Part shown: positions 561 to 25,789 of the stretch, in pieces
Position numbering within the stretch: the first letter of the stretch is position 1
How the letters are laid out: every line of letters begins with the position of its first letter
The notes under the pieces: model-generated
What the model saw: only the letters and a program-made list of their open reading frames with translations
Database searches by the model: none
What the model was told of the DNA's origin: nothing
IMG/VR virus record: IMGVR_UViG_3300029267_004201
Span: 1 to 26,971 of that record
Length of the DNA stretch: 26,971 nucleotides
Source of the DNA: a virus
Direction: 5' to 3' (one strand)
Translations under genes and position numbers: made by a program

Positions 561-1322
561 CTAGTTCAGGTATACGGCCAACTCCTCCACAATCTCCGGA
601 ACTCTCTTCCGTCCTTCGTAGGCCGCAAGTACGTATTGGGTAATCCCCTCGGCAATCGCCAGGTCTCTCACGAGCTGCTCATACGGATCGTCGCTGAAGA
701 AGACCTTGGGGAAGTTGTCGATGGGGGGCAGGGTGTTGTCTGGCAACCGGCTGTCGATACGACGAAGCACACCGGCCGGGTGCCAGGTCACTAGCATGGG
801 GTATGTCAAGTCTCCCTTGACCTCGCTAGGGACTTTGATGTTGACGACTTCACCGCGGTAGGCCTTGAGCGTGCAGGATGGCCCGCCGAGTGTCTTTGCA
901 GCAACGGCACCGAGAGCTACCACCAGAAGCGGGTTCAGGTGGTAGATCTCCTTGTGCAGGCGCTCCCTACACGCGCTGACTTCTCCGCCCATCGGCTGCC
1001 GGTTGTACTTGGGGTTCTCCAAGTCGGGCGGGCGGCAGAGGACTGCGTTGGTGTAGTAGTGGCGATCCTTGTCGATGTCGAGCATCCAGAGGACGTCGAA
1101 TAGGGTCGTTCCAGTCTTGCCGACGAAGACCTCTCCCTTCTTCTCCTCTTGGACGCCGGGAGCTTCCCCGACAAACACGATCGGGGGGTTGTCGATGTTT
1201 CCTTTCCCGAAGATCGGACGACCAAGTCGGGTCTCGTTGAGGGGACAGCGGGTACAATTCCCCCACTCCGCTCCCAGGTAGCTTTCGACTTCCGAGGGCG
1301 GTAGGTGTTCAAGTTCCGTCAA
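561..1322 (-). CDS. Family 4 uracil-DNA glycosylase (Fe-S, UdgA-like)
   Basis: The 253-residue protein carries the motifs of family 4 (thermophile-type, iron-sulfur) uracil-DNA glycosylases, which excise uracil from DNA. Motif A GEAPG is at 52-56, followed by FVGKTG at 66-71, TNAVLCRPP at 91-99 and the HPA motif at 181-183 (HPAGVLR). Four candidate 4Fe-4S ligands are visible: C23 and C26 (CTRC), C96 and C118. The C96-C118 spacing looks longer than I recall for the family because of an insert. The start is TTG at 1322, 7 bases after an AGGAGA site. The next in-frame Met (residue 80) lies beyond the catalytic motif, so a non-ATG start is needed. It overlaps the helicase stop by 14 bases. The C-terminal 60 residues are not recognisable. 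A phage carrying this enzyme probably does not use uracil in its own DNA. Confidence 0.9.
   Translation of the reverse strand: MTELEHLPPSEVESYLGAEWGNCTRCPLNETRLGRPIFGKGNIDNPPIVFVGEAPGVQEEKKGEVFVGKTGTTLFDVLWMLDIDKDRHYYTNAVLCRPPDLENPKYNRQPMGGEVSACRERLHKEIYHLNPLLVVALGAVAAKTLGGPSCTLKAYRGEVVNIKVPSEVKGDLTYPMLVTWHPAGVLRRIDSRLPDNTLPPIDNFPKVFFSDDPYEQLVRDLAIAEGITQYVLAAYEGRKRVPEIVEELAVYLN
569..576 (-). promoter_or_regulatory. Degenerate match to the CGTATAAG box (CGTATACC)
   Basis: On the minus strand CGTATACC lies 17 bases upstream of the ATG at 551, inside the 3' end of the glycosylase gene. It shares the first six bases of the CGTATAAG box found before three other leftward genes. It could be a weak internal promoter. 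It could equally be chance, because it also encodes the protein's C-terminus. Confidence 0.25.
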
Positions 1323-2658
1323 TGCTCTTTCTCCTGTAGCCGTATCGGTACACGTTCCCGCGGAACTTCCCGAATGTTCGGTGTAGCATGGGCACGTCTA
1401 CTGGGTCGTAGGCGTAGACGTGCGGCGGCTGTTTGGTTGGGTGGTTTCTGAGGATCCTTCCGACTCCTTGGACGAAGCGCCTCTTGCCGGCCCAGGGCAA
1501 GCAGATGTGCAGCGTGTCCAGCTCGGGCCTGTCGAGTCCCTCTGTTGCCAGCTGGGTGGTCGCACACACGATGTCACTATCGTGTAGAGCTCCTGCCCGG
1601 TCATCTGCGTCCGTGTCCCCGACTAACAAGGAGGACCCTTTCAGGTTGCTGTGAAGAAAGCGCAGCTGCTCCTTGCGGTCGCTCAAGAGGAGCTGCTTTC
1701 TGCCCTGCCCAGCGCATTGCTGAACCTGAGCCAGGATGGAGTCGTTGATCTTGCTTGTACCAACTTCGTTCAAAGTCCACGCACGCTCAGCCCCATCGTC
1801 ATCAAGGGACGCCCCTACCTTGATCCTGGCGATTTGCTGCTGCGTCAGGCGCGCTTTGGTCTTGACGAAGAAGACCTCGGGCTCGAGGTCGGTTTCGTCG
1901 TTGCGGTAGACGACAGGCCCGATGTGGTTCAAAAAGACCGACTCCAGCCCAGCACAGTCCGGTGTTGCGCTGAGCCCAACACGCCTACCCCTGCAGATCG
2001 CCAACCCGTTGCGGAATTGGAACCCCTGCATGTGGTGTACTTCGTCGTAGATGACTAGCCCGAACTCCGAGAAGAGGGGGACGCACTTGTCCGGAGTCCT
2101 GGATAGAGATTGTATCAGGGATACAACGAGGTCTTTCTCCTCGTACTTCCACTTCTTGGCCTTTCCTCCTATCAGGCCTATGCGGTCCTTGGGCAGACCA
2201 AGCACTGTCTGTGCTCGGTCTACCCATTGCTGCTGTAGGTCTTTCGTGTGTACGACGATCAGCGTCGGGACGGCCAGGGTCTGTGCCAGCTGTAGCCCGA
2301 TAGCGGTCTTCCCTGTGCCAGGCGGCAGTTGGATCACCCCGTTCTCTTCCAGTAGCACATCCACAGCCTGGATTTGTGCTCGCCGAGCCCTCTCGTTTGG
2401 GGCGTTGTCCGCGGAGACGACATTGGCTGCCGACCCGAATGCTTTTCGGAACGCGGGCTCGATCCTCAAGACAGGGACCTGCAAGAGATTGAGCTGGGAG
2501 TCCGAGAAGACTTCCCTCGGACACATCCAGTACTTGCCGACGTCGTACACCTCTTGCACTTCGCGCCCGTCAGCGTAGGCGTACGAGCATTTGCTCGTCA
2601 GCGCCCGCCAATTGAGTTCCCCTTTGGGCACGAGTGCCCAGGTCCCCTTTACTACCAT
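1309..2658 (-). CDS. SF2 DEAD/DEAH-box helicase (UvsW/XPB-like)
   Basis: This 449-residue protein has the superfamily 2 helicase motifs in order. Walker A is PPGTGKT (112-118), motif Ia follows at LIVVHTKDL, motif II is DEVHH (205-209), and motif III is SAT (230-232). Motif V is ATEGLDRPELDTL (371-383) and motif VI is QGVGRILR (397-404). Such enzymes (T4 UvsW, XPB-type) use ATP to unwind or remodel branched DNA in replication, recombination and repair. The N-terminal 80 residues form a small extra domain. I chose ATG at 2658, which overlaps the stop of the upstream gene (ATGGTAG). A GTG-started extension to 2787 is open but adds a compositionally odd stretch that lies inside the upstream gene. 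No strong RBS precedes 2658, so translational coupling is likely. It is in one operon with the glycosylase. Confidence 0.9.
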   Translation of the reverse strand: MVVKGTWALVPKGELNWRALTSKCSYAYADGREVQEVYDVGKYWMCPREVFSDSQLNLLQVPVLRIEPAFRKAFGSAANVVSADNAPNERARRAQIQAVDVLLEENGVIQLPPGTGKTAIGLQLAQTLAVPTLIVVHTKDLQQQWVDRAQTVLGLPKDRIGLIGGKAKKWKYEEKDLVVSLIQSLSRTPDKCVPLFSEFGLVIYDEVHHMQGFQFRNGLAICRGRRVGLSATPDCAGLESVFLNHIGPVVYRNDETDLEPEVFFVKTKARLTQQQIARIKVGASLDDDGAERAWTLNEVGTSKINDSILAQVQQCAGQGRKQLLLSDRKEQLRFLHSNLKGSSLLVGDTDADDRAGALHDSDIVCATTQLATEGLDRPELDTLHICLPWAGKRRFVQGVGRILRNHPTKQPPHVYAYDPVDVPMLHRTFGKFRGNVYRYGYRRKSIDGT

Positions 2659-3011
2659 TTGAACACCATCATTTTCTGAAAGGCTGCTCGGATGCCGATC
2701 AGAATACCATGCGAGACGACCAGAGTCGCGCCCATAGCGGCTGCTTTTCCGGTCACTTTGATCATCATCCCCATGGCGTCTTCCCACTTCACCGGGACGT
2801 CTTCTTCGTTGTCGATGTCCTGGAAGATGGACTCGAGAACGTCTCCCATCGATGAGGAGAAGATGTCTTTCCCCTTGCCTACGCTCCGTACGTCGATCCC
2901 AGTATCGTCGTCATCGTCGTAGTCGGCGTTCGGGGACCTTGTGATTCTCACTCTTCGCCCATTTTCGCGTCCCAGCCAAGTCCTCGGTCGCGGAATTCTA
3001 CTTGCTGACAT
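2652..3011 (-). CDS. Small acidic protein with hydrophobic C-terminal helix
   Basis: I do not recognise this 119-residue protein. It has a basic N-terminus (about 1-28), a run of consecutive aspartates (DYDDDDDTGID) near residue 30, and an amphipathic region. A hydrophobic segment near 92-110 (AAAMGATLVVSHGILIGI) could be a membrane helix or a buried helix. The start is ATG at 3011, with AGGAGG about 6 bases upstream. It is the first gene of the leftward operon and overlaps the helicase start. A CGTATAAG box sits about 43 bases upstream of its ATG. Confidence 0.75.
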   Translation of the reverse strand: MSASRIPRPRTWLGRENGRRVRITRSPNADYDDDDDTGIDVRSVGKGKDIFSSSMGDVLESIFQDIDNEEDVPVKWEDAMGMMIKVTGKAAAMGATLVVSHGILIGIRAAFQKMMVFKW

Positions 3012-3054: not shown

Positions 3055-3062
3055 CTTATACG
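3055..3062 (-). promoter_or_regulatory. CGTATAAG promoter-like box, copy 1
   Basis: The minus strand reads CTCCGTATAAGTCAGGG here. The 8-base core is identical to the boxes at 23377 and 25782, each of which precedes a leftward gene. TATAAG could act as a -10 element, putting the transcript start near 3048 with a leader of about 37 bases before ATG 3011. No TTGACA-like -35 is visible at 16-18 bases. It may be an extended -10 or phage-specific promoter. Confidence 0.6.
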
Positions 3063-4213: not shown

Positions 4214-5002
4214 GTGGCGGTCAAAACCTTTCATATCTTCAACGTCAAGGGACAGTTAGAGGACCTCTCTTCCCTCTACACAGATAAGCCTGTAGGTACG
4301 CCTCAGGACTTCGAGATCGAGGCCGACCCGGACGAAGACCTTGTCGACAGCTCTGATATCGAGGTAGAGGCGGAAGCGGATCTCGCAGACCTCGAGTCGA
4401 TGACGGTCTGGTACATCCTCCGAGATCAACTTGGAGAGGACTGGTGGGTCCACGAGGCCCAGGCTACTGTAGACGTCTTGGAGGGCTCGTTCCCGATCTC
4501 TCAGGGTGCACGAGACCTGATACAGTCCCTGCGTCTGCTGGAGTCCGGGAATGCTTTCTGGAAAGAATGGGAGGTGTTCAACTGGGTTTGCCAGGGCATC
4601 AACGGTGACGGGGTCGATTTCACGGGGTTTCCTATCCCGACTGTGGAGCAGATGGCCGAGGCTATGCTCCTTGCGTCTTTCGTAGAGAAAGCTCGGGGGG
4701 AGCAGGAGAACTACAGTGAAGAGGTCCTCTCGTACATCGCAACTACTTGCCTCGAGCATGGAATGTGGGTATTGCCCTTCCCCTTAGTGATCGCAGGGGA
4801 CCGGATTCGGGAACTGCTGAAGCGAAGGGACCTCTCCGTCCCGCTCGACAGAGAAGCTTCCATCAGGAAGGGGTCTGATCCTCTGACTAGCCAAGAGGCC
4901 GTTCAGGGGGTTCGCTATCGGGCACTGTGGGACGAGGTCCAGGGTATCGTCAAGGAGTCCGTCAGGGAGCTGTCGACTTACAAGAGGGTGAGTAGCACAT
5001 GA
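4214..5002 (+). CDS. Unknown acidic protein immediately upstream of portal
   Basis: I do not recognise this 262-residue protein. The start is GTG at 4214 with GAGGAG 9 bases upstream; a nearby ATG at 4206 is in another frame and soon meets a stop. Residues about 34-60 are very acidic (repeated D/E with Asp-Leu-Glu pairs). The rest is helical with several Trp residues (for example DWWVHEAQATVDV and FWKEWEVFNWVCQG). The stop overlaps the portal start as ATGA, indicating coupled translation. A virion or DNA-packaging accessory role is inferred from position only. Confidence 0.8.
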   Translation: MAVKTFHIFNVKGQLEDLSSLYTDKPVGTPQDFEIEADPDEDLVDSSDIEVEAEADLADLESMTVWYILRDQLGEDWWVHEAQATVDVLEGSFPISQGARDLIQSLRLLESGNAFWKEWEVFNWVCQGINGDGVDFTGFPIPTVEQMAEAMLLASFVEKARGEQENYSEEVLSYIATTCLEHGMWVLPFPLVIAGDRIRELLKRRDLSVPLDREASIRKGSDPLTSQEAVQGVRYRALWDEVQGIVKESVRELSTYKRVSST

Positions 5003-6984
5003 GTGGTGACGGATTCACGGTAGGCGGTCTGGGGGCGGCTAGCCACCTCCAGAAGTACAACCGCGTCGGGGTCAGGTATCCGAGTCCTTTCTTCGACCTA
5101 TCGCAGGTGTACTTGCCGAAGAACATGCGGGCGCTGTTCCGCTGGGCAAAGTACTACGCGCTGACCTATGGCCCGGTCTACGCCTACGTGACCAAGATGG
5201 CCTCCTACTCTCTCACAGAACTCGTGTGGGGGAGCGACGCAGACTCCAGCATGTCCTCGAGCTTCGACGAGGACAAGTGGAAGAAACGCTGGTCCTCATT
5301 GATGCTCGAGGACATGCTGATGTACGAGAAGTGCTACCAGTTCGGGTTGCACTACTACACCTTTGGGAACGCCTACGTCAGCATCCACTATCCATTTGAC
5401 CGGTGGCTCATCTGCCCGAAGTGTGGCTTCAGGAAGCGCGCTAGAGAGTTCAGGAAGAAAGAGTACCGGTGGGTCGACTTTCGCTTCCACGGAGAATGCA
5501 GGAAGTGCGGGACCAACGGTCCTTTCAAGGTCAAGGATCAGTTGGTGAGGACCTCCCGTGGTCTTCGCATCAAGATCTGGAATCCTGAGCGCGTCCTCAC
5601 GTTCCACAACGACGCTACCGATGAGACCGAGTACAAGTACCAACCCTCCGAGCAGCTCATGCGCCGAGTCCGGCGAGGTGACAGGAGGGTCATCGAGAGG
5701 ACCCCGTGGGCATTCATCGCTGCGACGAAGAAGCGGGGCCTCGTCACGTTTGACAAGAGGAACTTCGTCCACGTCAAGGCCCCAAGCCCAGATGGTGAAT
5801 CTCAGGGCCTCGGACACCCGCCTATCCTCGCAGCTCTGAAGGACATCTTCCACGTCCAACTCATGAAGCGCGCCCAAGAGGCCAACGCTATCGAGCGCAC
5901 GATTCCACTCACGATGATCCATCCTCTCCCGATGGGCGGCGGTGAGGGGTGGAACCCTATGATGTTCACCAACCTGACCGACCTCCTCCAGAAGACTCAG
6001 GAGGAGGTGTCTCGGGCCAGGATGGACCCCAACTACATCCCCTTCTCCCCTGTCCCTATGGGGGTAACTCCGATTTGGGGCGATGGGCGGAACCTACTGC
6101 TCGTCCCGGAAATTCGTGGCTGGACAGAGATGATTGTTGCCGACTTGGCTGTCCCGACAGAGTTCATCTTCGGTGGCCTCCAGTGGTCTGGCAGTAACGT
6201 CTCACTCCGGATGTTGGAGAACCAAATCTTGAGCTTCACATCGGGCTACAAGCGCCTGACGAAGTTCGTCGTCGAGTCCGTAGCCCGCTTCTTGAAGTGG
6301 CCGATCATCCCGTATGCGTGGACCCCATTCAAGATGGCCGACGACATCCAGCTGAAGCAGCACGCGCTGATGCTTTCGCAGATGAACAAGATTGGAGACT
6401 CTACATTGCTCGGTTACTTCGGGAAGAACCCGTCCGACGAGCACGACGACATCAAGCAGTCCCTCAAGCGCCAGTCCGAATACATGTCTATCCAGATGGT
6501 CGAGCAGGCCAGGGCCCAGGCAGAAGCAGCAGAGGTCCAACAAAAGGCCCAGATGTCGATGCAGCAAGAGATGGGCATGCAGCAACCTGGGATGGAAGGG
6601 CAGCCCGGGGCTGAGCAAGGGATGCCACCGACTGGGGAAGAGGACCCGCAGCAGTTTGCGATGAGGATGGCCGAGCAGCTGGCCCCACAGCCCGATGAGG
6701 TCATCGAGCAGACGCTGACCGAGGTTGCCCAGCAGTCCCCCGAGCTCGCGCAGCAGATTGCCTCGATGGTTGAGCAGATTCGAGCTCAAGGAGGAGGCCA
6801 AGAGGAGCAGCCTCAGGAGCAGGGGGCTCCGCAGGAAGAGCAGATGCAACCAGGTATGATGCAGCCTGGAATGCAGCCAGGAGGACCCGGGTTCGGACCT
6901 GGTACAGCTCCCGGCGCTCAGATGATGCAGCCACAACCACAGCAACTTCCGCCGCGCCGTGGTCCGGGAAGTGCGGCCATCTAG
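4999..6984 (+). CDS. Portal protein with zinc-ribbon insert and Gln/Met/Pro-rich tail
   Basis: The portal forms the dodecameric ring at the head vertex through which DNA is packaged and ejected. This 661-residue protein has a typical portal core. A helical N-terminal region is followed by the signature stretch around 388-410 (EFIFGGLQWSGSNVSLRMLE) and a crown/stem region to about 500. Two CxxC pairs, C139/C142 and C167/C170, form a probable zinc ribbon inserted in the N-terminal half. Residues about 500-661 are low complexity, with coiled-coil Gln-rich sequence followed by repeated MQPG-type units. The start overlaps the upstream stop (ATGA), and the RNA polymerase gene starts 8 bases after its stop. 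The assignment rests on recognising the core motif and the operon context; the tail is unusual. Confidence 0.85.
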   Translation: MSGDGFTVGGLGAASHLQKYNRVGVRYPSPFFDLSQVYLPKNMRALFRWAKYYALTYGPVYAYVTKMASYSLTELVWGSDADSSMSSSFDEDKWKKRWSSLMLEDMLMYEKCYQFGLHYYTFGNAYVSIHYPFDRWLICPKCGFRKRAREFRKKEYRWVDFRFHGECRKCGTNGPFKVKDQLVRTSRGLRIKIWNPERVLTFHNDATDETEYKYQPSEQLMRRVRRGDRRVIERTPWAFIAATKKRGLVTFDKRNFVHVKAPSPDGESQGLGHPPILAALKDIFHVQLMKRAQEANAIERTIPLTMIHPLPMGGGEGWNPMMFTNLTDLLQKTQEEVSRARMDPNYIPFSPVPMGVTPIWGDGRNLLLVPEIRGWTEMIVADLAVPTEFIFGGLQWSGSNVSLRMLENQILSFTSGYKRLTKFVVESVARFLKWPIIPYAWTPFKMADDIQLKQHALMLSQMNKIGDSTLLGYFGKNPSDEHDDIKQSLKRQSEYMSIQMVEQARAQAEAAEVQQKAQMSMQQEMGMQQPGMEGQPGAEQGMPPTGEEDPQQFAMRMAEQLAPQPDEVIEQTLTEVAQQSPELAQQIASMVEQIRAQGGGQEEQPQEQGAPQEEQMQPGMMQPGMQPGGPGFGPGTAPGAQMMQPQPQQLPPRRGPGSAAI

Positions 6985-6992
6985 GATGACTC

Positions 6993-9900
6993 ATGGCGCA
7001 AGAGATCTACGACTACGACGAGATCAAGGACTCGGTCGGCGAAGCCATCCAGGAGATTTTCCCTGTTGCTGGCAGGAACCTGACCGTTGAACTCAACAGC
7101 GTCGACATTGTCGACAACAAAGCTGAAGACGACATCTCGGGACAATACGCCCAGCTCACCAAAGGTAAGACGTGGTCCATTCCCGTCTACGCCAATGTCA
7201 CCTTGCGGGACTCCAAAGGGGAGATTGACAAAGCGCGGGTGAAGGTCTTGGACCTGCCCAAGATGACGGATCGTAAGACCTTCATCGTCTCTGGGAAAGA
7301 GCGACAAGTACACAGCGTCCTTCGCCGGAAGTCGGGCGTTTTCTCTCGGAGGAACGAGGCGGGTGAGCTCGTGTCCGAGTTCAATCTCGACAACGGGTTG
7401 CACGAGGGCGGCAAGGTCGACCGCGGGAGGAAGTTCCAAGTCAGGTTCGACGACCAGAGCGGGAAGTTCCTCGTTCAAATCGGGACCAGGAAGACCATCA
7501 ACGCCTACGACCTATTGGGGGCCTTGGGGTACAATACCGAGGCGCTATCAGGGAGGTTCGGGGACGATATCCACAAGGCCAACCTATCGGCCCGCTCTAA
7601 GAAGCGTAGCATCGATAGCGCCTTTGCGGCCATCTACCCGAAGGTGACGAAGAGCCTGTCCACTGACGAGAAGGCCAAGCGCATCAAAGAGAGTTTCGGC
7701 CGCACTTCCATCGACCCCTCTACGACCGAGGTGACTCTCGGGAAGCGTATCGACACCATCGATGGGGACACACTCGTCTCGTCGATGAATCGCCTGCTCA
7801 AGATTTCCAGAGGGGAAGCTGAAGAAGACGACAGGGAGTCTTTGCTCTTCAAGCACACGGCAGCGCCTCCGAAGCTGATCGCCGAGAGCATCTCACACCC
7901 AAGGAACATCGAGCGCATCCGTGCGAAGATACGTGGTCGCCTCAACAATCCAAAGAAGAAGCCCGAAACGGCTAGCAAGGCCCTCCCACTTCGGATCTTG
8001 GACAAGCCGGTCCACACTATGCTGACCGACTCAGATGAGTCTGACATCGTAGACCATGCCAACCCCGTCGGCACGATGTCTGGGCACAACCGAGTCAGCA
8101 TGTTGGGCCTGGGGGCCATCAAGAACTTGGAGCAAGTTCCATCCGATGCTCCTCTGGTAAGCCCGTCACATTTCGGCTTCATCGATCCTCTCCACACGCC
8201 GGAGAGTCGAAAAGCAGGGGTCTCTCTCCACCTCCCTGTCGGTGTCCGCGCCACCAGGGACGGGAAGCTCGAGACCGAGATGTTGCGGACGGACGGTAGC
8301 AAAGTGCGCGTCTCAGCCGAGGAGGCCGCGAAGGCGACTGTCGCGTTCCCAGACGAGTTCAACATCCGCGAGCGAGCGGGCCGGACGAGTGTAAAAGCTG
8401 CGAAGGGCAAAGTGCTGGCGCAGAGGAACGGCAAGATAGAGTCTGTCGACCCGCAAACGGTGGACTTCATCCTCCCCAAGCCACAGCAGGCTTTCGACAC
8501 GGCCACGAACCTGGTCCCTTTCCTCCAGTCCAATCAGGGGAATCGGGCTATGATGGCCGGGAAGCATGTAACCCAGGCCCTGCCGCTGAAGAACCGAGAG
8601 CAGCCGCTAGTCCAGACGGGGATGGAAGAGGAGATGTCTCAGCACGCCGGGGCGCGCAAGTCTCCGGTAGCTGGCAAGGTCACGGCCGTCAATGAAGTCG
8701 ACGGGGCCTACGAGGTCCGCATCAAGCCCAAGAAGGGCAAGGCCGTTGTCGTCAAGGCTTACAAGGACTTTCCAACATCTGGCGGCGTAGTGCTCGACTC
8801 CGACGTCAAAGTGAAGGTCGGGGACCAGGTGAAAGAGGGAGACCTCGTCGCAGACAGTTCGTTCACGAAAGACGGCGTCCTAGCGATGGGCACGACCCTC
8901 AAGGCTGCCTACATGCCATGGAAGGGGTACGCGTTCGAGGATGGCGTTGTCATCAGCGACCAGGCAGCGGAAAAGCTGACGAGTGTGCATCTCCACGAGC
9001 GTACGAAGAAAGACAAGGAGATGATCCAGGACAAGAGCAAGTTCTTGGATTGGTTCGGTACACGCTTCAAGAGCAATGATGAGCAGCGGGCTCTCGACAA
9101 GAGCGGAGTTATCAAGAAGGGGCAGAAGATAGAGCCTGGGCAGATTCTCCTCGCAGGCCTCAAGGAGGTAGATCCTCGATCACCGGAGGCCATCCAGAGG
9201 AAGCGGGCCCGGTTGTCCCCGTATGACCCAGTGACGATGACTTGGGACAAGGACGTCCCTGGGGTTGTGACCGACGTCAAGAAGACTCCCGACGGGTCGG
9301 TGCGGGTCTTCGTCAAGACCGAAGAGAAGATGAAGGAGGGTGATAAGCTCGTCGGACGGAATGCGAACAAGGGCATCGTCGTCAAGATCCTCCCAACGGG
9401 GGAGATGCCGCACACCAAAGACGGGAAGCCCGTCGACATCATCATGTCTCCGCTCGGGATCCCTGGCAGGATCAACCTCGGGCAGGTCCTTGAGGTCGCA
9501 ACAGGGAAGGTCGCAGAAAAGACTGGAAAGCCGATTAGGGTCGCTCCGTTTGGTCGTCAGAGCTACATTGATGAAGCCAAGGAGAGGCTCAAGAAGGCTG
9601 GTCTCAGTGATACAGAAGAGCTCGTGGACCCGACAAGGTCTAACAGGTCTTTCGGGGATGTCCTCGTCGGCCCGCAGTACACGATGAAGCTCGAGCACCA
9701 GGTCTCGAAGAAGTCTCGGTCGCGGGCAACGGGCAAGTACGACAGGTGGGACACTCCTCTTGGCGGAGATGGGGGAGCTCAGTCTCTGGGGGAGCTCGGG
9801 ACGTATGGACTTCTTGCCCATGGGGCTGTCGAGAACCTGCGAGACATGCAGCTCCTCAAGAGCCAACGCAACGACGGCTTGTGGGATGCGCTCCTCAATG

Positions 9901-12900
9901 GGAAGCCGATCCCGGTACCGAACCACATCACCCAGAACGACCGTTTTGAGGGCCTGTTGCGCGTCGCCGGCGTGAAGATGAACAAGGGAGACACGGTCAG
10001 CCTCCTGCCCCAGACCGACGAGGACACGGTTCGTATGGCGATGGGGCGCAAAGGCCTCAAAGATGCTGGCCTCATGCTCGCGAACAAGCGAGACAGGGTA
10101 GTGGCAGAGCCAGAGGGCCTGTTTGACGCCATCAAGACCGGCGGTGAGAATGGTACGCGGTGGTCGTACTTCGAACTCCCTGAGCCGATCCCGAACCCGA
10201 TGTTCATGCCCGCAATCACGGCCATGACAGGGTGGTCTGAGGGGAAGGTCAAGGCCATCACCGAAGGTAGTGACAGCTACGAGGGCCTGACGGGGGGAGA
10301 GGCAGTCAAGAAGAAGCTGCAGGAGGTAGACCTGGCAGCTCTGCGCAAGTCTCTGCTCGCGGATGCCGACAATATCAAAGGCCGCAAGCTGAAGGCCGAG
10401 ACGAAGGCGAAAGAGCTCAGTACGATCTACAAGAAGCTCAAGTACGTCGAGAACCTCGAGAAGAACGAGAAGCGCCCAGAGGACGTCTACGTCTTACAGA
10501 AAGTCCCAGTGATGCCGCCCAAGCTTCGCCCGGTGACCTCTATTGGTTCTGGAGAGAGGGTAGCTGAGGACATCAACCACCTCTACCGCGACCTTGCCCT
10601 CGTCTCCAATACGATGAAGGAGTCGAAGGAGAAGTGGGGCCTCCCAGACGACCAACTGAAGCCTCTTCGCCGCGCTACCTTGGACGGCATGTCGGCCTTG
10701 GTGCAGGCCAAGAGTGCTGACAAGCCCCTGAGCGGGGCATACCGAGGTGTCATCGGTACGGTTGTCGGCAAGAAGCCGAAGGAGACCGGGTATGGTGAGG
10801 CCGGGGAGTCCAAACGCGGTCTCTTCCAGAACGACATCACCCGCCGGCGTCAGGACTTCAGCGGGCGGTCTACGATCACCGTCGAGCCGCGGTTGAAGAT
10901 CGACGAGGTCGGCCTCCCCTTCGGGATGGCCTACACAATGCTCGAGCCCTGGGCCATCAAGAAGCTGAAGGACAGGTACGGGTACAGCTCGCGAGACGCG
11001 CGCAAGTACTATGAGGAGAAGGGAGAGGAAGACACACGAGTTCGTGAGGTGCTCGTCGAAGTTGCAAAAGAGCGCCCTGTGCTCCTCAAGCGTGACCCTA
11101 CCCTCCACAAGTTCAACGTCATGTCCTTCCAACCGCAGCTGGTGGAAGGGAAAGCCATCCAGATTCACCCGCTGGTGACAGGGGGGTTCAACGCTGACTT
11201 CGACGGGGACACGATGAGCGTCTACGTGCCCGTCAGCGACAAGGCCGTGGAAGAGGCCGGCAGTCTCCTTCCTTCCAAGAACCTGTTCAGCCCGGCGAAC
11301 GGAAAGATCGTCCACAAGCTCGGCCACGAGATGGTCTGGGGTCTGAGTGGGATCACCGAAGTTGGGAAGACAACGGGCAAGAAGTTCTCTTCGACGAAAG
11401 CGGCAGAGTCTGCTCTCAGGAAGGGGGAGATCGTTCCTACTGACGTCATTAAGATCGGGCCAAGAGAGACCACGATGGGGTGGGAAGAGGTCAATCGGGC
11501 CATCCCAGCGAGATTTCGGTTCAAGGGAGATCTCAAGAAGAGGCCGCGGCTGACAGGCGGAAAGATCAACGACCTTTTGACCTCTGTGGCCAAGAAGGAC
11601 CCGGAGGCGTATGCCGAAGCGGCGAATACTCTGAAGGACATCGGTAACCGGCATTCTACCGATTCCGGCATGAGTGTGTCCTTGGATGACTTTGCAGTCA
11701 TCGACAAGGACTACCGAGATGCAGTCTTCTCGGAGGCCGAAGAGCGCGTTGCTGCTGGGGAAGACCCGGTAAAGGCCTACGGCTCAACCATCAAGAAGCT
11801 CGATAATCACAACCGGAGTCTGCTCCGTTCTGGGCAGGTCAAGAACAGCCTGTTCGAAGTTGTTGATTCCGGAGCTCGCGCGTCATGGGGACAGTTGAAG
11901 CAGATTGTATCCTCGCCGGCGATGGTGTTCGACGCTCAGAATAGGGTTGTTCCCAGACTCATCAAGAACTCCTACAGCGAGGGCCTCAACCTCGCTGACT
12001 ACTGGACAAGTACCCACGGGGCTAGAAAAGGGGCCATCAACAAGTCCATCTCGACGTCCAAGCCGGGCTATTTGAGCAAGCAGATCATGCGGACTTCGAT
12101 AGACCAGGTCATCCAGTCCGACGACTGCGGGACCCGCGAGGGCATCAACATGGCTACCAACGATCCTGATATCCAGGGCCGACACCTCGCGCATGGCATA
12201 CGGATCAAGGGCAAGAAGAGGAACCGAAGCATCAAGAGGGGTACTCTAGTCACGCCCTCGGTCACGAACACCTTGAAATCGTCAGGCGTTGGGAGCGTTC
12301 TCGTTCGTACGCCGATGCGCTGCGAGCACGAGAATGGGGTTTGCGCAAAGTGTATGGGCCTCGATGAGGAGGGGAAGAACCCATCCATCGGCGATAATGT
12401 TGGCGTTCTGGCCGCGCAAAGCATTGGGCAACCGAGTACCCAGCTCTCCCTCAACGTATTCCACACTGGGGGTATCGTCGAAGACCCGGACAAAGTCGTC
12501 GAGGGGGACCGCCTGCGGAACGCCGAGAACCTGCTCCGCTTGACCAAGAACATCCCCAACAGTGCTGTTCTATCCACGAAGTCTGGGAAGGTTGAGTCAG
12601 TGAGGAAGGCCCCCCAAGGCGGGCATGAGGTACGGGTTGGCGGGAAGGATATCTACGTCCCGCAAGACAGATCCCTGTTCTCCAGTATCAAGCCTGGGCG
12701 TCAGATCAAGCGCGGAGATCCTCTGACAGCGGGTGTAGTACACCCTATGGAGGTCTTGGACCTCAAGGGCTCATATGCGGCGCAAGAAGCCCTTGTCGAC
12801 CAGCTACACGCCCTATTCAAGGGGGGAAAGGGGGTGCAGAAGAAACACTTCGAGCTCGTTGCCAGAGGGATGATGTCGCACACTCGGGTGGTTGACCCAG

Positions 12901-13226
12901 GCAAGTCTGATTTCTCCCCCGGGCAGCCAGTCAACTTGGCGAAGGTGAAGGCCTTCAACCAGAAGGCGAAGGCGAAAGAGCGGATCAAGCACCTGCCAAT
13001 CGTCAAAGGTGTGGGGATGGCCCCCCTTGTCAACGAAGATTGGATTGCTCGCTTGAATGCGGAGAGGCTCCGTGAGACACTCGTCAATGCAGCGAATCAG
13101 GGGTGGGAATCTGACACGAAGGGCCCGCACCCGATCCCTGCTCTCACGTTTCTCGGGGAGGAAGAGATTCGTGAGACCTCCGGATTCGGTAGGCCAGTTC
13201 GAGCTGACAACTTTGAGGGCAACTAG
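6993..13226 (+). CDS. Single-chain multisubunit-type RNA polymerase (beta-beta-prime fusion)
   Basis: This 2077-residue DNA-dependent RNA polymerase joins beta and beta-prime in one frame. Beta part: lobe region near 97-180, fork region 354-425 (DHANPVGTMSGHNRVSMLG, then HTPESRKAG), MPWKGYAFED near 642, GDKLVGRNANKG with K785 and K793 matching E. coli K1065 and K1073, and the C-terminal clamp motif ending near 965. A linker spans about 967-1055. Beta-prime part: VLQKVPVMPPKLRP from 1167, DFSGRSTITV near 1287, NADFDGD at 1400-1406 (Mg-binding D1402, D1404, D1406), bridge helix 1664-1690, zinc site C1712/C1777/C1784/C1787, trigger-loop FHTGG with H1824, and an intact beta-prime C-terminus. The N-terminal beta-prime zinc ribbon and large lineage inserts are absent. 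ATG follows AGGA by 7 bases. Its place between portal and spike suggests late expression and possibly packaging in the virion. Confidence in the enzyme class is very high. Confidence 0.97.
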   Translation: MAQEIYDYDEIKDSVGEAIQEIFPVAGRNLTVELNSVDIVDNKAEDDISGQYAQLTKGKTWSIPVYANVTLRDSKGEIDKARVKVLDLPKMTDRKTFIVSGKERQVHSVLRRKSGVFSRRNEAGELVSEFNLDNGLHEGGKVDRGRKFQVRFDDQSGKFLVQIGTRKTINAYDLLGALGYNTEALSGRFGDDIHKANLSARSKKRSIDSAFAAIYPKVTKSLSTDEKAKRIKESFGRTSIDPSTTEVTLGKRIDTIDGDTLVSSMNRLLKISRGEAEEDDRESLLFKHTAAPPKLIAESISHPRNIERIRAKIRGRLNNPKKKPETASKALPLRILDKPVHTMLTDSDESDIVDHANPVGTMSGHNRVSMLGLGAIKNLEQVPSDAPLVSPSHFGFIDPLHTPESRKAGVSLHLPVGVRATRDGKLETEMLRTDGSKVRVSAEEAAKATVAFPDEFNIRERAGRTSVKAAKGKVLAQRNGKIESVDPQTVDFILPKPQQAFDTATNLVPFLQSNQGNRAMMAGKHVTQALPLKNREQPLVQTGMEEEMSQHAGARKSPVAGKVTAVNEVDGAYEVRIKPKKGKAVVVKAYKDFPTSGGVVLDSDVKVKVGDQVKEGDLVADSSFTKDGVLAMGTTLKAAYMPWKGYAFEDGVVISDQAAEKLTSVHLHERTKKDKEMIQDKSKFLDWFGTRFKSNDEQRALDKSGVIKKGQKIEPGQILLAGLKEVDPRSPEAIQRKRARLSPYDPVTMTWDKDVPGVVTDVKKTPDGSVRVFVKTEEKMKEGDKLVGRNANKGIVVKILPTGEMPHTKDGKPVDIIMSPLGIPGRINLGQVLEVATGKVAEKTGKPIRVAPFGRQSYIDEAKERLKKAGLSDTEELVDPTRSNRSFGDVLVGPQYTMKLEHQVSKKSRSRATGKYDRWDTPLGGDGGAQSLGELGTYGLLAHGAVENLRDMQLLKSQRNDGLWDALLNGKPIPVPNHITQNDRFEGLLRVAGVKMNKGDTVSLLPQTDEDTVRMAMGRKGLKDAGLMLANKRDRVVAEPEGLFDAIKTGGENGTRWSYFELPEPIPNPMFMPAITAMTGWSEGKVKAITEGSDSYEGLTGGEAVKKKLQEVDLAALRKSLLADADNIKGRKLKAETKAKELSTIYKKLKYVENLEKNEKRPEDVYVLQKVPVMPPKLRPVTSIGSGERVAEDINHLYRDLALVSNTMKESKEKWGLPDDQLKPLRRATLDGMSALVQAKSADKPLSGAYRGVIGTVVGKKPKETGYGEAGESKRGLFQNDITRRRQDFSGRSTITVEPRLKIDEVGLPFGMAYTMLEPWAIKKLKDRYGYSSRDARKYYEEKGEEDTRVREVLVEVAKERPVLLKRDPTLHKFNVMSFQPQLVEGKAIQIHPLVTGGFNADFDGDTMSVYVPVSDKAVEEAGSLLPSKNLFSPANGKIVHKLGHEMVWGLSGITEVGKTTGKKFSSTKAAESALRKGEIVPTDVIKIGPRETTMGWEEVNRAIPARFRFKGDLKKRPRLTGGKINDLLTSVAKKDPEAYAEAANTLKDIGNRHSTDSGMSVSLDDFAVIDKDYRDAVFSEAEERVAAGEDPVKAYGSTIKKLDNHNRSLLRSGQVKNSLFEVVDSGARASWGQLKQIVSSPAMVFDAQNRVVPRLIKNSYSEGLNLADYWTSTHGARKGAINKSISTSKPGYLSKQIMRTSIDQVIQSDDCGTREGINMATNDPDIQGRHLAHGIRIKGKKRNRSIKRGTLVTPSVTNTLKSSGVGSVLVRTPMRCEHENGVCAKCMGLDEEGKNPSIGDNVGVLAAQSIGQPSTQLSLNVFHTGGIVEDPDKVVEGDRLRNAENLLRLTKNIPNSAVLSTKSGKVESVRKAPQGGHEVRVGGKDIYVPQDRSLFSSIKPGRQIKRGDPLTAGVVHPMEVLDLKGSYAAQEALVDQLHALFKGGKGVQKKHFELVARGMMSHTRVVDPGKSDFSPGQPVNLAKVKAFNQKAKAKERIKHLPIVKGVGMAPLVNEDWIARLNAERLRETLVNAANQGWESDTKGPHPIPALTFLGEEEIRETSGFGRPVRADNFEGN

Positions 13227-14894
13227 GTGCCGACTAAAAAAGAGGGATCAACGAGTGCAGGGTTCATGTCGGGGAGGATACGTGACGTCCACCCAGAGAA
13301 GTGGACTGTCGACGTCTCCCTCAGCGATGGCGGGTACATCGAGAGCATACCTGTAGCCGCACCCTACCTCCACTATCAAGAGGGAGAAGGGATCTACGCT
13401 ATGCCAGAAGTGGATGCTCCCTGCATCATCTTCACGGGCTCTGGTGGCTCCGGCCCCTGTGTGATGTGCTTTACTCCCCTCCGCAGAACCGATCTCGGGG
13501 AGGAGTCCGTTCCCGAGGACAACCATAGCGTAGGTAGGGACACGGCTACTCCGGGAGACATCTTCTTGCACGGTAGGGACGGCAACTTCGTCCGCGTGCG
13601 ACGAGCCGGGTTTGTCGAGGTGGGGGCTTCAGATTTCTGCCAGTCCATCTACTTCCCGGTTGGGGATCTCATCCGAACCATCTGCATGAACCACGAGACT
13701 TTCGTGGGTGGGTCGTATTTCAAGACGAACGTCATCGACGATCCGAGCGTCCCAGATGAGGGACCTACTCCTGTCCAAGTCGACATCATGATCCAGGAGT
13801 ATGCGGAGAAGGCCCCCTTGATGGATATCAAGCTCGGTCACGTCGTCGATGATGAAGGTCGTCACCTGGCTGGGGCGGACGCGGGCCAGATAGTGGGCAG
13901 GCTACTCGTCTTCTCGCAGCAGACCGTCGACGACGCAGAGCAGGCTGGCCTAGACCCAAGCCCAGACCAGGCCGTATTGTCGATGAGGTTCGATAGGAAC
14001 GGCAACGCCGAGCAGATCATGTCTGGGCAGTACCTCCTCAAGATGGGGAGCCGGCGTCTGTTCATCACTGGCAGCGACGTCCAGCTCGTAGACGGAAACC
14101 GATCTGAGCGCGTGCACGGAAACAAAGACACCAACGTCGGGGGAGACCACGCAGAGCATGCCAAGGGCAGCAGAACGATCAGCTCAGATGGCCCACTCTA
14201 TCTTTCTGGGGAGCGTATCGTCTTTAGCCAGCGTCGGTCGAGAGAGGACCAGCTCGAGGGCAGCCAGAACACCGTAGTCGGCGGGAGTCGGAATGACGAG
14301 ATTGCCGGCGATAATCGGGTCGTTGCTGGTGGTGGGTCGGCAAACACGTGTGCCGGCAACCGCTCTACCGTTACTGGCGGTAAGCACTTCACGACAGTCG
14401 TCCACGGAGCTGAACCAGGGTCTGTCCTCCAAGGGGCGATAGCCTCGCTACTCCAGGTGGTCGATGGAACGATCCGCCAACATGCAATGGCGGGGGACAT
14501 CGAGGTCATGGTCGGGCCATCAGCAGCCCCTTATTGCAGAGTCAGGCTGCACGCTGCCCCCAATAGGCCCAATGAGTTTGGGCGCGTGTCCATTGAGTGG
14601 CTCAATCCGAGGCAGCACTTGATCATCGACGGTTTGACTGGCCACATCGAGTACAAGAACTCCGTCGGCGAGTGGGTCATGGACCCCTCTGGGAGGACGA
14701 AGATAGGCCTCCAAGATCAGCCAGCAGGTAACGTTGTCACGACGCTTACTCACCCGATCTGCTACGTGACGGGTGCTCCTATTCTAGGGTGTGCAGCAGT
14801 TGCTGCCGCCGGGCCACCAGTCCCCACTCAGGTAGCTGCTCCAACTACTCCGGTTGTGGAGAACGCTCCGAACCCAGACACCCCGAGGCCGTAG
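13227..14894 (+). CDS. Baseplate central spike (gp5/VgrG-like)
   Basis: The 555-residue protein looks like a tail-tip spike that punctures the host envelope. Residues about 12-70 resemble the OB-fold of gp5/VgrG/gpV spikes (SGRIRDVHPEKWTVDV and following). A middle region to about 280 is unassigned, and no lysozyme motif is seen. From about 285 to 400 there are short Gly/Asn/Val-rich units (NRSERVHGNKDTNVGGDH, QNTVVGGSRNDEIAGDN) typical of triple-stranded beta-helix spikes. The C-terminus is Pro/Ala/Thr-rich and probably flexible. GTG at 13227 directly follows the polymerase stop, with GAGGG 7 bases upstream. An ATG at 13266 has a poorer site and would cut into the OB-fold. A contractile tail is inferred from this protein type. 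Confidence 0.8.
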   Translation: MPTKKEGSTSAGFMSGRIRDVHPEKWTVDVSLSDGGYIESIPVAAPYLHYQEGEGIYAMPEVDAPCIIFTGSGGSGPCVMCFTPLRRTDLGEESVPEDNHSVGRDTATPGDIFLHGRDGNFVRVRRAGFVEVGASDFCQSIYFPVGDLIRTICMNHETFVGGSYFKTNVIDDPSVPDEGPTPVQVDIMIQEYAEKAPLMDIKLGHVVDDEGRHLAGADAGQIVGRLLVFSQQTVDDAEQAGLDPSPDQAVLSMRFDRNGNAEQIMSGQYLLKMGSRRLFITGSDVQLVDGNRSERVHGNKDTNVGGDHAEHAKGSRTISSDGPLYLSGERIVFSQRRSREDQLEGSQNTVVGGSRNDEIAGDNRVVAGGGSANTCAGNRSTVTGGKHFTTVVHGAEPGSVLQGAIASLLQVVDGTIRQHAMAGDIEVMVGPSAAPYCRVRLHAAPNRPNEFGRVSIEWLNPRQHLIIDGLTGHIEYKNSVGEWVMDPSGRTKIGLQDQPAGNVVTTLTHPICYVTGAPILGCAAVAAAGPPVPTQVAAPTTPVVENAPNPDTPRP

Positions 14895-22614: not shown

Positions 22615-22970
22615 GTCGGGTAGGACGGGTTCTTCTCTTGTCCTGGGCGCCCTTGCTCTGCCAAGCGAACAGCAAGGGGCTTGGTGGCTCGGGGCATGTA
22701 CTCAACGCGCACCCAGGTCTTCCACAAGAATCGGTCTTTGGTAGTCTTGGTCCGAGTTCTGGTCTTCTTCCAGTTCTTTGGGTGGTGTGCCCCTATCAGG
22801 TCCAAGATGCTCTGGCGTTGGCCCTTGGCCTCCGTCCAGACCGATACTAATAAGACGGAGGGGTCGGTGTACCGCTTTGAGCGGACTACCTCTACTTCCG
22901 TCTTCATCGCTACTGCCCCGAGAGTACCTTTCAGGTGTTGAGCGACGCTATCAAGTTGGTCCCATTGCAT
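22611..22970 (-). CDS. Unknown small basic protein
   Basis: I do not recognise this 119-residue protein. ATG 22970 overlaps the end of the upstream gene by 20 bases and has AGGA about 13 bases upstream. A longer open frame to 23078 lies within the upstream gene and was not used. The N-terminal 60 residues look like a small alpha/beta domain (VEVVRSKRYTDPSVLLVSVW). A basic stretch KNWKKTRTRTKTTKDR lies near 70-85, and the C-terminus is basic and Pro-rich. It is cotranscribed with the gene at 23352 and convergent with the virion operon. Nucleic acid binding is possible but unproven. Confidence 0.65.
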   Translation of the reverse strand: MQWDQLDSVAQHLKGTLGAVAMKTEVEVVRSKRYTDPSVLLVSVWTEAKGQRQSILDLIGAHHPKNWKKTRTRTKTTKDRFLWKTWVRVEYMPRATKPLAVRLAEQGRPGQEKNPSYPT

Positions 22971-23352
22971 AGTCGTAGATCTTCCTGGCGACGATGTTCT
23001 TCCCTTCCGGGCACAGGATACACCATCGGAATCCAGAGCACCCGAGTCTTTCGGCAACCCTGAATAGCTCTTGCTCAATGAGGATCTCTGAGAGTAGTTC
23101 TCGCAACAAGGACAGTTGACTCTTCGTCACCCTGCCTGCAATCTCGTGCCTGCGCAGGACTTTTGTGAGCTCCTCGTTTGACAAGGCTCTCCGCAGTGCT
23201 GGTAAGATTCTGTCAGGGGGAAGTTCCCATACCTCCTCTCGGATCTCCGGTTCGATGATGGCCTTGTGGGCGAGAAGCCTCTTCCCACTGTCGCATTCGG
23301 AGAAGTATTCGGGAGCGGAATGGGCCTCCAAGATGTCGATGATTTTCTGCAT
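22951..23352 (-). CDS. Unknown small protein with C-terminal Cys cluster
   Basis: I do not recognise this 133-residue protein. ATG 23352 has an excellent site, AGGAGGAG, about 6 bases upstream, and a CGTATAAG box 24 bases upstream. The sequence is helical and charged (REEVWELPPDRILPALRRAL). Near the C-terminus CSGFRWCILC gives three cysteines in a C-x5-C-x2-C pattern; with the earlier Cys near residue 20 it could bind a metal, but this is speculative. It is divergent from the terminase gene, and the two starts are 32 bases apart. Confidence 0.75.
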   Translation of the reverse strand: MQKIIDILEAHSAPEYFSECDSGKRLLAHKAIIEPEIREEVWELPPDRILPALRRALSNEELTKVLRRHEIAGRVTKSQLSLLRELLSEILIEQELFRVAERLGCSGFRWCILCPEGKNIVARKIYDYAMGPT

Positions 23353-23376: not shown

Positions 23377-23384
23377 CTTATACG
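23377..23384 (-). promoter_or_regulatory. CGTATAAG promoter-like box, copy 2
   Basis: The minus strand reads ACATCGTATAAGTCCCTCAC. The box ends 24 bases before ATG 23352, leaving a leader just long enough for its AGGAGGAG site if TATAAG is a -10 element. The box abuts the terminase ATG at 23385 on the other strand. A polymerase bound here could therefore interfere with rightward transcription into the terminase gene. Confidence 0.65.
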
Positions 23385-25100
23385 ATGTTGTCCATAGAGA
23401 GACCTGAGACCTCAGAAGAGATGGCTGAGTTTCGCGCGCACTCTGCGCGGGTGAAGCACGTGCAGCAGAGGCGGCTTCGGCAGTCTCAGTGGATTGACCA
23501 GAACCTGACGGTAACGGGCAAGGCGCTCAATCTGCACTTTCGGCCTTGGTGGATTCTCCCATACGACCTCGAGTACATGAAGTTCCCCAAGAACAAGTAC
23601 CGACGTAGTGCCGTCATTGTGGCCGGGAGGCAGGTAGAGAAGTCCTCGAGCTTGGCGAACAAGGCGCTCGCCGAAGCCCAGGTTCCCTGGACCAGCATCC
23701 TCTACGTAGCCCCATCCAACCCGCAGCTCTCTGAGTTTTCCTTTCGGCGCATCGACGAGGTTGTAGAGACTTCCCCGAAGATCACCCACATGCGGGATGA
23801 AGACCGTTGGAGCGTGAGTCGGAAGTCCTTCTTTGGGCTCCACTCGAGCATCACTCTTCGAGCTGCCTACCTCACCCCTGACCGAGTTCGTGGTATCCCG
23901 GCAGAGGTCCTGTTCATCGATGAGGTGCAGGACATCATCAACGAGAACATCCCCGTCATCCGGGAGACTCTAGCCCACTGTGACAGGGTGGAGGGCCCTA
24001 TCTTTCGAGTGCTGGGTACCCCCAAGACCTACGACAATCCTCTCGAGTACTACTGGTCCCAGGAGTCGACACAGAACGAATGGATGATCCGCTGTGAGGC
24101 GTGCAACCACTGGAACGAGGGGATGATGGAGGACAACATCGGTCCTCACGGCCTAGTCTGCATCAAGTGCGGCGGAAAGTTGAACCCCTTCGGGAAAGTA
24201 ACCTCTGACGGGAAGAGGTTCGGAGCCGGGTGGTTCAGAACAGGCCCGGCCTCTGCTGATATGGAAGGCTTTCGCATTCCACAGCTCCTCCTCCCGTACA
24301 GCTTCTCTTACAACCGGGACCTCTTCCGAAGGAAGTGGGACGACCTGCTCTACAAATGGCGGCGGTACAACCGTCCCCGGTTCTACAACGAAGTCCTCGG
24401 CATCAGCTACGATTCGGGCGACAAGCCAGTAACTAGGGAGGACCTGAAGAACATCTGCATGCCGCAGCACAAGTTGTTGAACCTGGACGTCGCTGGGGCA
24501 AAAGCCCCACCCAAGCTGGTGAACGGATACGTGTTCTGCGGAGTCGACTGGGGCCTGGGAGACCCGTCGAAGACGATCTTCACAGCTGGAAGGTATGTCG
24601 ATGACCTCTTCGAGGTTTTCTTCCTGAAGAACTTCACCCGTGACCTCCTAGACCCCGAGCTCGCGGTCGCCGAGGTGATGCGCCTACTCGGAGCAGTCAA
24701 CGCCAACTTCGTAGGGCTAGACTGGGGTCTTGGTCATGGTCTCAATAGTAGGATCAGGAAGGCCTTCGGGTTCGACAAGACTTTCGTCTACGCGCACACC
24801 AACCAGCGAGACAAGTTGAAGTACGACACGTCAGCGATGGTCTACATCACCAATAGGACGGCTGTGCTAGCGGACGTGTTCCATCTCGTCAAGTCAGGCG
24901 GTATGCGCTTCCGCTGTTCGTGGGACGAGCTCCACGACGAGGGATACGCGGGGGACTTCTTGAACGTCCACAAGGAGCTGAACGTACACGGGAACCTCAA
25001 GTACGATCACCCGAAAGGAACCACGGACGACACCGTGCATAGTGTGGCCTACTCGTTCCTCGCATCTCAGGCTAAATTTCCGAGGCCAGACCTCCAGTGA
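23385..25100 (+). CDS. Terminase large subunit (ATPase-nuclease)
   Basis: The 571-residue protein is the DNA-packaging motor, which cuts concatemers and pumps DNA through the portal. ATPase domain: a Walker A-like GRQVEKS at 81-87 (Glu where Gly is usual), Walker B VLFIDE at 175-180 and coupling motif LGTPKT at 210-215. A zinc ribbon (C237/C240 and C259/C262) lies between the ATPase and nuclease domains. RNase H-like nuclease: D388 in FCGVDWGLGDPSKT, D446 in FVGLDWGLG, and D548/D549 in TTDDTVHS supply the expected acidic residues. ATG 23385 has GAGGGA 8-9 bases upstream. Length is normal for the family. It is separated from the portal gene by about 16 kb and a leftward gene pair, which is unusual but known in large phages. 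No small subunit is recognisable nearby. Confidence 0.93.
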   Translation: MLSIERPETSEEMAEFRAHSARVKHVQQRRLRQSQWIDQNLTVTGKALNLHFRPWWILPYDLEYMKFPKNKYRRSAVIVAGRQVEKSSSLANKALAEAQVPWTSILYVAPSNPQLSEFSFRRIDEVVETSPKITHMRDEDRWSVSRKSFFGLHSSITLRAAYLTPDRVRGIPAEVLFIDEVQDIINENIPVIRETLAHCDRVEGPIFRVLGTPKTYDNPLEYYWSQESTQNEWMIRCEACNHWNEGMMEDNIGPHGLVCIKCGGKLNPFGKVTSDGKRFGAGWFRTGPASADMEGFRIPQLLLPYSFSYNRDLFRRKWDDLLYKWRRYNRPRFYNEVLGISYDSGDKPVTREDLKNICMPQHKLLNLDVAGAKAPPKLVNGYVFCGVDWGLGDPSKTIFTAGRYVDDLFEVFFLKNFTRDLLDPELAVAEVMRLLGAVNANFVGLDWGLGHGLNSRIRKAFGFDKTFVYAHTNQRDKLKYDTSAMVYITNRTAVLADVFHLVKSGGMRFRCSWDELHDEGYAGDFLNVHKELNVHGNLKYDHPKGTTDDTVHSVAYSFLASQAKFPRPDLQ

Positions 25101-25149: not shown

Positions 25150-25755
25150 TTAGGCAGCGCGGGCTACAGATAGGTGTGGTCTCTTGGGCTCCAGCTGCCC
25201 AATCAGGACCTGCTGCGCAGTGGCTACCTGCCCGAGACGGATACAGCTGACAGCTCCAACGAGGATGAGACTGAGGTCTCGAATCCACTCCCACCAAGCC
25301 TTGGCTTGAGATCTCCTCCTCTCCTCTTGAATGGTCACAGAGATGAGCGTCATCGTCTCTTCGATGAGTGCGTTCAGCGCCCGCTGCTCCTTCGTCGTCT
25401 CACGCAGGTTCTCCAGGGCGCCCTTGACGAACTCCCTGGTGTCTGCATCGAGTTTGCTGATCCTCGTTTGCTCCTCCCGAAGATACTGCATCACCCACTG
25501 CATCATCGGGTCGGGCTGGTTGCTTGCTGCCATCTTTTTTCCTCTCCTCCCTGTAGTGTTCTGTCTTCCCTTGGACACCACGCCTTTGGCTACTTCTTTG
25601 GCGGCCTCTCCCGCCTCTCTCGCTTTGTCGATTGCACTTTGTGCACTGCTGCTCAACTTCTCCGTGAGCGAGGGCCCATATTCTTCCTCTTCTGGTTCAC
25701 TCGCTAGAACCAGGGCCGTACTCTCGTCGAAGTTGGACATCTTCCCTGCTGGCAT
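25150..25755 (-). CDS. Coiled-coil protein with one likely membrane helix and internal start
   Basis: I do not recognise this 201-residue protein. ATG 25755 has GGAGGG about 5 bases upstream and a CGTATAAG box 26 bases upstream. Residues 20-26 are acidic (EPEEEEY) and about 36-62 form an amphipathic Ala/Lys helix. Residues 66-75 are basic (NTTGRRGKKM), about 83-150 is a long coiled coil, and 158-178 is a likely single membrane helix (SLILVGAVSCI in its core) after a Trp-rich border. An in-frame ATG at 25533 (residue 75) has its own strong SD. A dnaX-type A AAA AAG heptamer sits just before it in the zero frame. Two-product genes with one membrane helix occur among phage lysis proteins, but nothing here proves that role. 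The stop is 22 bases from the hairpin. Confidence 0.8.
   Translation of the reverse strand: MPAGKMSNFDESTALVLASEPEEEEYGPSLTEKLSSSAQSAIDKAREAGEAAKEVAKGVVSKGRQNTTGRRGKKMAASNQPDPMMQWVMQYLREEQTRISKLDADTREFVKGALENLRETTKEQRALNALIEETMTLISVTIQEERRRSQAKAWWEWIRDLSLILVGAVSCIRLGQVATAQQVLIGQLEPKRPHLSVARAA
25531..25552 (-). promoter_or_regulatory. Internal SD, A AAA AAG slippery heptamer and internal ATG
   Basis: On the minus strand AGGGAGGAGAGG (25552-25541) is followed at once by AAAAAAG (25540-25534) and ATG (25533-25531). The heptamer is in the correct zero frame (GGA AAA AAG) for -1 slippage, and an upstream SD is a known stimulator in dnaX. The -1 frame adds 44 codons and stops at 25400. The alternative reading is simply an efficient internal start giving a 127-residue product. 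Confidence 0.5.
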
Positions 25756-25781: not shown

Positions 25782-25789
25782 CTTATACG
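25782..25789 (-). promoter_or_regulatory. CGTATAAG promoter-like box, copy 3
   Basis: The minus strand reads ACCTCGTATAAGGTCGGG, and the box ends 26 bases before ATG 25755. It lies in the 37-base gap after the stop of the upstream leftward gene (25793), so it would give the membrane protein its own promoter. No -35 consensus is seen. Confidence 0.6.

Follow-up and report, generated by a model that had tools for sequence, protein, structure and literature searches.

The phages of the phiKZ/AR9 type carry multi-domain RNA polymerases (RNAPs), including a virion form for early genes; these enzymes are very divergent, are built from at least four or five proteins and occur as two per phage (PMC7598289). 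Single-chain two-barrel RNAPs are found in the crAss-like phage phi14:2 (gp66) and in Thermus phage P23-45 (gp96/gp64), gp66 and gp96 being virion enzymes. Among cellular enzymes, the rpoB-rpoC of Helicobacter and Wolinella is a natural β-β′ fusion in one chain of about 2900 amino acids (aa) (PMC1557499). A deep-branching phage RNAP clade, mReC, was published in 2020 by Weinheimer and Aylward as multi-subunit; in the part of that report used here its enzymes are presented as β and β′ subunits, with fusion mentioned only for crAssphage (PMC7481178). Here we describe a gene in the IMG/VR virus record IMGVR_UViG_3300029267_004201 (26,971 nucleotides, analysed at full length and called the window below) that encodes β joined to β′ in one chain. 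We consider it fairly probable that its product is a virion-packaged, single-chain, early-gene RNAP.

The open reading frame (ORF) matches the Pfam domains Rpb2_6 (4e-55), Rpb2_3 (1e-5), Rpb1_1 (4e-10), Rpb1_2 (2e-29) and Rpb1_5 (1e-32), together with Rpb1_3 at 1e-4, which is under its gathering score. The RpoB and RpoC domains follow one another in the expected order, as a preliminary description of the window had claimed for the motifs of both subunits, and every residue which it had named (both lysines, NADFDGD, H1824 and the zinc cysteines) is in its place. The features of the gene are as follows.

6993-13226, plus strand: single-chain β-β′ RNAP, ATG to TAG, 2077 aa, no internal stop
6993-9980, plus strand: β part, residues 1 to about 996, its model aligning with bacterial and plastid β chains
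9981-10038, plus strand: β/β′ join, residues about 997-1016, from alignment with bacterial rpoB/rpoC pairs; limits approximate
10039-13223, plus strand: β′ part, residues about 1017-2077, its model aligning with bacterial β′ chains
9345-9371, plus strand: catalytic lysines K785 and K793 (GDK...NANK)
11190-11210, plus strand: NADFDGD, residues 1400-1406, Mg-binding catalytic motif
11997-12104, plus strand: bridge helix (about 1669-1704), a long helix in the model (model residues 783-818)
12126-12353, plus strand: zinc site C1712/C1777/C1784/C1787
12438-12482, plus strand: trigger loop with H1824

Among 84 full-length chains, K785, K793, D1402/D1404/D1406 and H1824 are invariant, and the four zinc-site cysteines are kept in 82-83. 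Bacterial HGNK reads NANK in the branch of the window. The hallmarks of a two-barrel RNAP are present, namely the DxDxD triad in the β′ barrel and the two lysines in the β barrel and, by alignment and in the models, the bacterial β/β′ fold, the bridge helix and the trigger loop. Judged by sequence and predicted structure, the chain is a complete bacterial-type two-barrel DNA-dependent RNAP core on one polypeptide, and its predicted catalytic competence is well supported. In some relatives (L015, L043, L052, L053, L057, L058, L062 and L072) intein-like inserts interrupt polymerase catalytic motifs: after GDK (786/787), between PLGIP and GRIN (824), before the final D of NADFDGD (1405/1406) and in the trigger loop (1820). 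Several of these inserts start with Cys and end with Gly-Asn.

At the join, the end of β, after the bacterial EMEVWALEAYGA/KSDD region, passes straight into the start of β′, and the variable ends of the bacterial subunits are missing. The chain is compact, with 2077 residues compared to about 2400-2870 for β plus β′ in the bacteria compared. In the phage alignment rows shown, the β′ N-terminal zinc ribbon and the β flap tip are absent, the clamp-helix sequence, near-constant in the bacteria compared, has diverged, and the C-terminal LKENVIVGRLIPAGTG segment of β′ is replaced. The chain thus has neither the flap tip for σ region 4 nor the bacterial clamp-helix sequence for σ region 2 that mark a σ70-dependent RNAP. 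AlphaFold models were made of two overlapping pieces, using alignments of 59 rows. The model of residues 885-2077 (mean predicted local distance difference test score, pLDDT, 89.5; predicted template modelling score, pTM, 0.87) aligned to bacterial β′ chains with Z about 31 over about 1000 residues, its β′ start stretch falling on the first residues of those chains. The model of residues 1-1120 (mean pLDDT 86.2, pTM 0.78) aligned to bacterial and plastid β chains with Z about 35-36 over about 855 residues; within it, blocks with pLDDT 44-69 make the join region around 900-1000 less certain. Both halves of the chain proposed for structure prediction in the preliminary description therefore matched the bacterial folds.

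Relatives were collected by scanning IMG/VR viral contigs with alignments, a first profile query having matched only an overlapping contig. They are encoded on 583 pattern-matched IMG/VR stretches, and the 131 distinct classified loci comprise 86 with the whole chain in one ORF (5 of them enlarged by inserts), 12 unbroken to the contig end and 33 broken. The fusion, which had been thought unusual in a phage, is thus the common form among these loci. None of the 131 is broken at the β/β′ boundary; breaks lie near residues 1093-1100 and 1489-1493 (window numbering), with one odd case (L175) elsewhere, and Salmonella phage Arash and Vibrio phage D69 have β fused to the first half of β′. Split inteins were considered at the broken β′ sites and rejected, as the ends of the pieces are ordinary starts and stops and no intein ends were seen. 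In a tree of 1789 columns under the site-heterogeneous LG+C20 model, with 12 bacteria and one archaeon as references, the 12 bacterial rpoB-rpoC pairs form one clade (Shimodaira-Hasegawa-like approximate likelihood ratio test 100) and 29 phage enzymes another (100) on a long stem. The window chain, as expected of a phage enzyme, lies inside the phage clade and groups with L044 (62% identity). In a second tree, which included inteins and more broken chains, broken versus unbroken β′ needs one change. Both were quickly made trees and have long branches, which leaves the branching order at the base of the phage clade uncertain. On the sequences compared, the β-β′ fusion is common to the whole phage clade. 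The β-β′ join is intact in the broken forms as well; the simplest account is then that the fusion came first and that one subclade, with Arash and D69 in it, re-broke β′ later at one or two other sites. We found no description of a single-chain β-β′ phage lineage in the open-access literature.

The β′ break of several loci (L001, L002, L049, L051, L055 and others) lies near the cyanobacterial rpoC1/rpoC2 break, residue 6 of 9dvs_F (Syn7942) aligning with window residue about 1506; the two breaks appear to have converged. Other single-chain RNAPs, of 1921-2306 aa, occur in L096, L099, L102 and L105, contigs binned in bacterial metagenome-assembled genomes (MAGs); their long branches fall neither in the bacterial clade nor in the main phage clade.

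The observed chain could also have arisen from misassembly joining two genes, or the window could be a bacterial contig, the two cases which the preliminary description had named as fatal to a colinear, cellular-like, phage-encoded fusion. Both are contradicted, and we give them a practically negligible chance. Over 12,430 bp a second IMG/VR contig (57 kb) agrees with the window at 99.93%, and it encodes the same chain across the join, at 100% to residue 1812, where the contig ends; with the 86 unbroken viral ORFs this rules out an assembly artefact. A host contig is ruled out by the position of the chain among phages and by its neighbours, which are phage genes for portal, hub and terminase. 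Apparent rpoB-rpoC fusions in MAGs (Jettenia, Flavobacteriales, Actinomycetota), suggested by long open frames, proved to be separate ORFs when read. Records of the phages collection such as CAKLQH020000005, OR844998 and OR846602, with others, carry ordinary separate bacterial rpoB and rpoC, and for this reason look like host contamination.

Compared with the described systems, the locus most resembles mReC. As described for mReC (PMC7481178), a cellular-like β/β′ enzyme is found with cellular profiles on IMG/VR contigs with Caudovirales genes: the window chain matches β and β′ profiles (Pfam replacing COG), contains NADxDGD, exceeds 800 aa and ends in a stop codon, and our tree has a Caudovirales RNAP clade deeply apart from cellular RNAPs. 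The same source gives the major capsid protein PF07068 in all 8 detected mReC, and the terminase PF03237 in those with a Pfam match, a common trait of mReC that is no part of their definition. PF07068 matched none of 28 records here, but this model matched no control either; PF03237 matched 11 of 28, the window not among them, its terminase being of the GpA_ATPase type. Compared by description, the clade of the window is probably mReC. The chain is not of the phiKZ/AR9 type, where β and β′ are each split over several proteins, as it is one ORF. It also differs from phi14:2 gp66 and P23-45 gp96/gp64, which are far more divergent; crAss RNAPs gave no match to cellular β/β′ profiles according to the mReC authors (PMC7481178), whereas the window chain matches Pfam RpoB and RpoC domains strongly. 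In these respects its placement outside both the phiKZ/AR9 and the YonO/crAss types in the preliminary description is borne out. The Helicobacter and Wolinella fusion, which the chain resembles in its organisation, is independent and lies outside the phage clade. Arash (Gp206/Gp216) and the Vibrio phages D69, D148 and D181 share about 30% identity with the window over nearly the whole chain, the portal-RNAP order and the β-β′ fusion; in contrast to the window, a break after about residue 1489 places the rest of their β′ in a second gene, and they encode σ factors. Their polymerase proteins were deposited as 'subunit beta' or 'hypothetical protein'.

The polymerase gene is contiguous with structural genes, with 8 and 0 bp separating it from the portal and hub genes; other plus-strand genes lie between the hub and the terminase.

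4999-6984, plus strand: portal protein homologue, homologous to the Arash gene annotated portal, directly upstream of the RNAP
13227-14894, plus strand: baseplate hub/tail-lysozyme-like gene, directly downstream of the RNAP
23385-25100, plus strand: terminase large subunit, GpA_ATPase type

This arrangement recurs: of the 132 loci with room for one, 104 have a portal homologue upstream of the RNAP, a hub homologue lies shortly downstream in 67 loci, and the terminase is 5-10 kb downstream in most of 59. Elsewhere in the window, a uracil-DNA glycosylase superfamily gene (561-1322, minus strand; Pfam UDG 1.6e-25) adjoins a DEAD/ResIII helicase gene (1309-2787, minus strand). The 167-kb relative G002 (L235-L243) has a 55-bp direct repeat at both ends, and its genome may therefore be complete.

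In mass spectrometry of Arash virions, Gp206 gave the most spectra of any protein (3516), with Gp216 among the top five at 1210, the major capsid protein at 1333 and a σ factor at 467 (PMC10585845). By alignment, Gp206, named 'beta', corresponds to β plus the active-site half of β′, and Gp216 to the rest of β′. Because homologues are present in Arash virions and the gene keeps its place in the structural block, we consider that the window enzyme is likely to be packaged in the virion.

A candidate promoter was found upstream of genes in the family. The motif search was done on relatives, as the window and the 57-kb contig held too few intergenic gaps. Shine-Dalgarno words aside, the 7-mer most strongly over-represented upstream of genes in the 167-kb L044 contig is, by a wide margin, GTATAAG (16 sense-upstream copies, 0.74 expected). 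It is also enriched, usually as GGTATAAG, in Arash (17, with 0.92 expected), G011, G019, G035, G042 and G043; control stretches of 50 kb from E. coli, SPN3US and T4 showed no enrichment. Aligned sites have T-rich bases before the core and AA...T(A/G) after it, and no −35 element was seen in the aligned sites of relatives. In Arash, 30 of 31 GGTATAAG copies are on the minus strand, which holds 62% of the genes called (p 9e-6). The structural genes, among them those for terminase, portal and RNAP, are on the plus strand, whose only copy stands just before gp9-gp10, gp10 being a σ factor. The window has three minus-strand copies.

3055-3061, minus strand: GTATAAG promoter-like motif, before a minus-strand gene
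23377-23383, minus strand: GTATAAG promoter-like motif, before minus-strand ORF 22951-23352
25782-25788, minus strand: GTATAAG promoter-like motif, before minus-strand ORF 25150-25755

All three lie just before a Shine-Dalgarno sequence and start codon; for the whole set of anagram words, which takes in these three, the figure is 12 of 247. No GTATAAG precedes the structural operon in the window. The pattern fits promoters of early or middle genes that phage machinery reads, but the pattern alone does not tell which polymerase does so. A search of the open-access literature for a description of the motif gave nothing relevant. In G040 (L253-L261) another upstream word, GTCATAA, is enriched (12 copies, 0.44 expected), and is possibly that lineage's version of the motif.

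A σ70 region 2 above the cut-off was detected in 11 of 13 split-β′ records, Arash and most other split-β′ phages thus encoding a σ, compared with 4 of 26 single-chain records (Fisher 5e-5, the rows not being independent). None was found in G001 and G002, which belong to the window's branch. The loss of the flap tip and the rarity of σ region 2 suggest that the single-chain enzymes work without a standard σ, with divergent factors possible.

Together these observations can be accommodated by a scheme in which the enzyme, with its β (about 1-996) joined end to start to a β′ lacking the N-terminal zinc ribbon, would be made late with the virion proteins and then packaged, and would enter the cell with the DNA to transcribe early non-structural genes without host RNAP. 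Transcription would start at -10-like (G)GTATAAG promoters that have no −35 box; as no recognisable σ70 region-2 gene was found in the window's branch, the motif would have to be read either by the chain or by a factor not recognised as such. Several points weigh against this scheme. The Arash preparation held 116 proteins, and its authors allow for carry-over of abundant ones (PMC10585845); the virion data come from a relative only roughly 30% identical to the window chain, and the window enzyme is known here from sequence and models, its unbroken relatives from sequence. Where bacteria have the trigger-loop Arg (R933 in E. coli), the window's branch has Asn1821. GTATAAG is weak in G034 and G008 and not enriched in G036, G038, G040 and D69, and it could be read by a phage σ on host RNAP.

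The location of the gene in the structural operon also fits a late enzyme, and the same polymerase might be a non-virion one, made during infection for middle/late transcription, with (G)GTATAAG used by the host or another polymerase. The σ factors of most split-β′ relatives and the lack of GTATAAG before the window's structural operon are in keeping with this, but the homologue is the most abundant Arash virion protein by spectra (PMC10585845). Moreover, only one RNAP of the family was detected per phage, so that a late enzyme would leave the early genes to the host; we regard this alternative as unlikely. A rather unlikely alternative, though one we weigh a little more seriously, concerns the motif only: (G)GTATAAG may be a host-type promoter or other signal for host RNAP, with a host or phage σ, unrelated to the single-chain enzyme. 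The motif does resemble a -10 element, and Arash encodes σ factors, one of which was found in virions. However, its last base is G, unlike the TATAAT consensus, and it comes with no visible −35; it is not enriched in the E. coli, SPN3US and T4 stretches, is common to phages with only about 30% identity between their RNAPs, and is present in G002, where no σ70 region 2 was detected.

We therefore favour the virion-packaged early-gene enzyme. A wider proposal is possible but tentative: that a widespread deep phage lineage has a virion-packaged single-chain RNAP reading (G)GTATAAG without σ or host subunits, arising from an ancestral fusion whose β′ was re-broken in later subclades near the cyanobacterial rpoC1/rpoC2 break. 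If a single chain makes up a self-contained, cellular-like RNAP core, it would offer a compact tool and a means of testing what α, ω, σ, the flap tip and the zinc ribbon contribute, with the cultured phage Arash as an experimental handle on the clade and (G)GTATAAG as a candidate promoter. Our results suggest a single-chain or fusion-derived nature for the phage RNAP clade described as 'multi-subunit', and the fusion, as a discrete trait beside a long-branch tree, bears on the depth of the phage RNAP branch.

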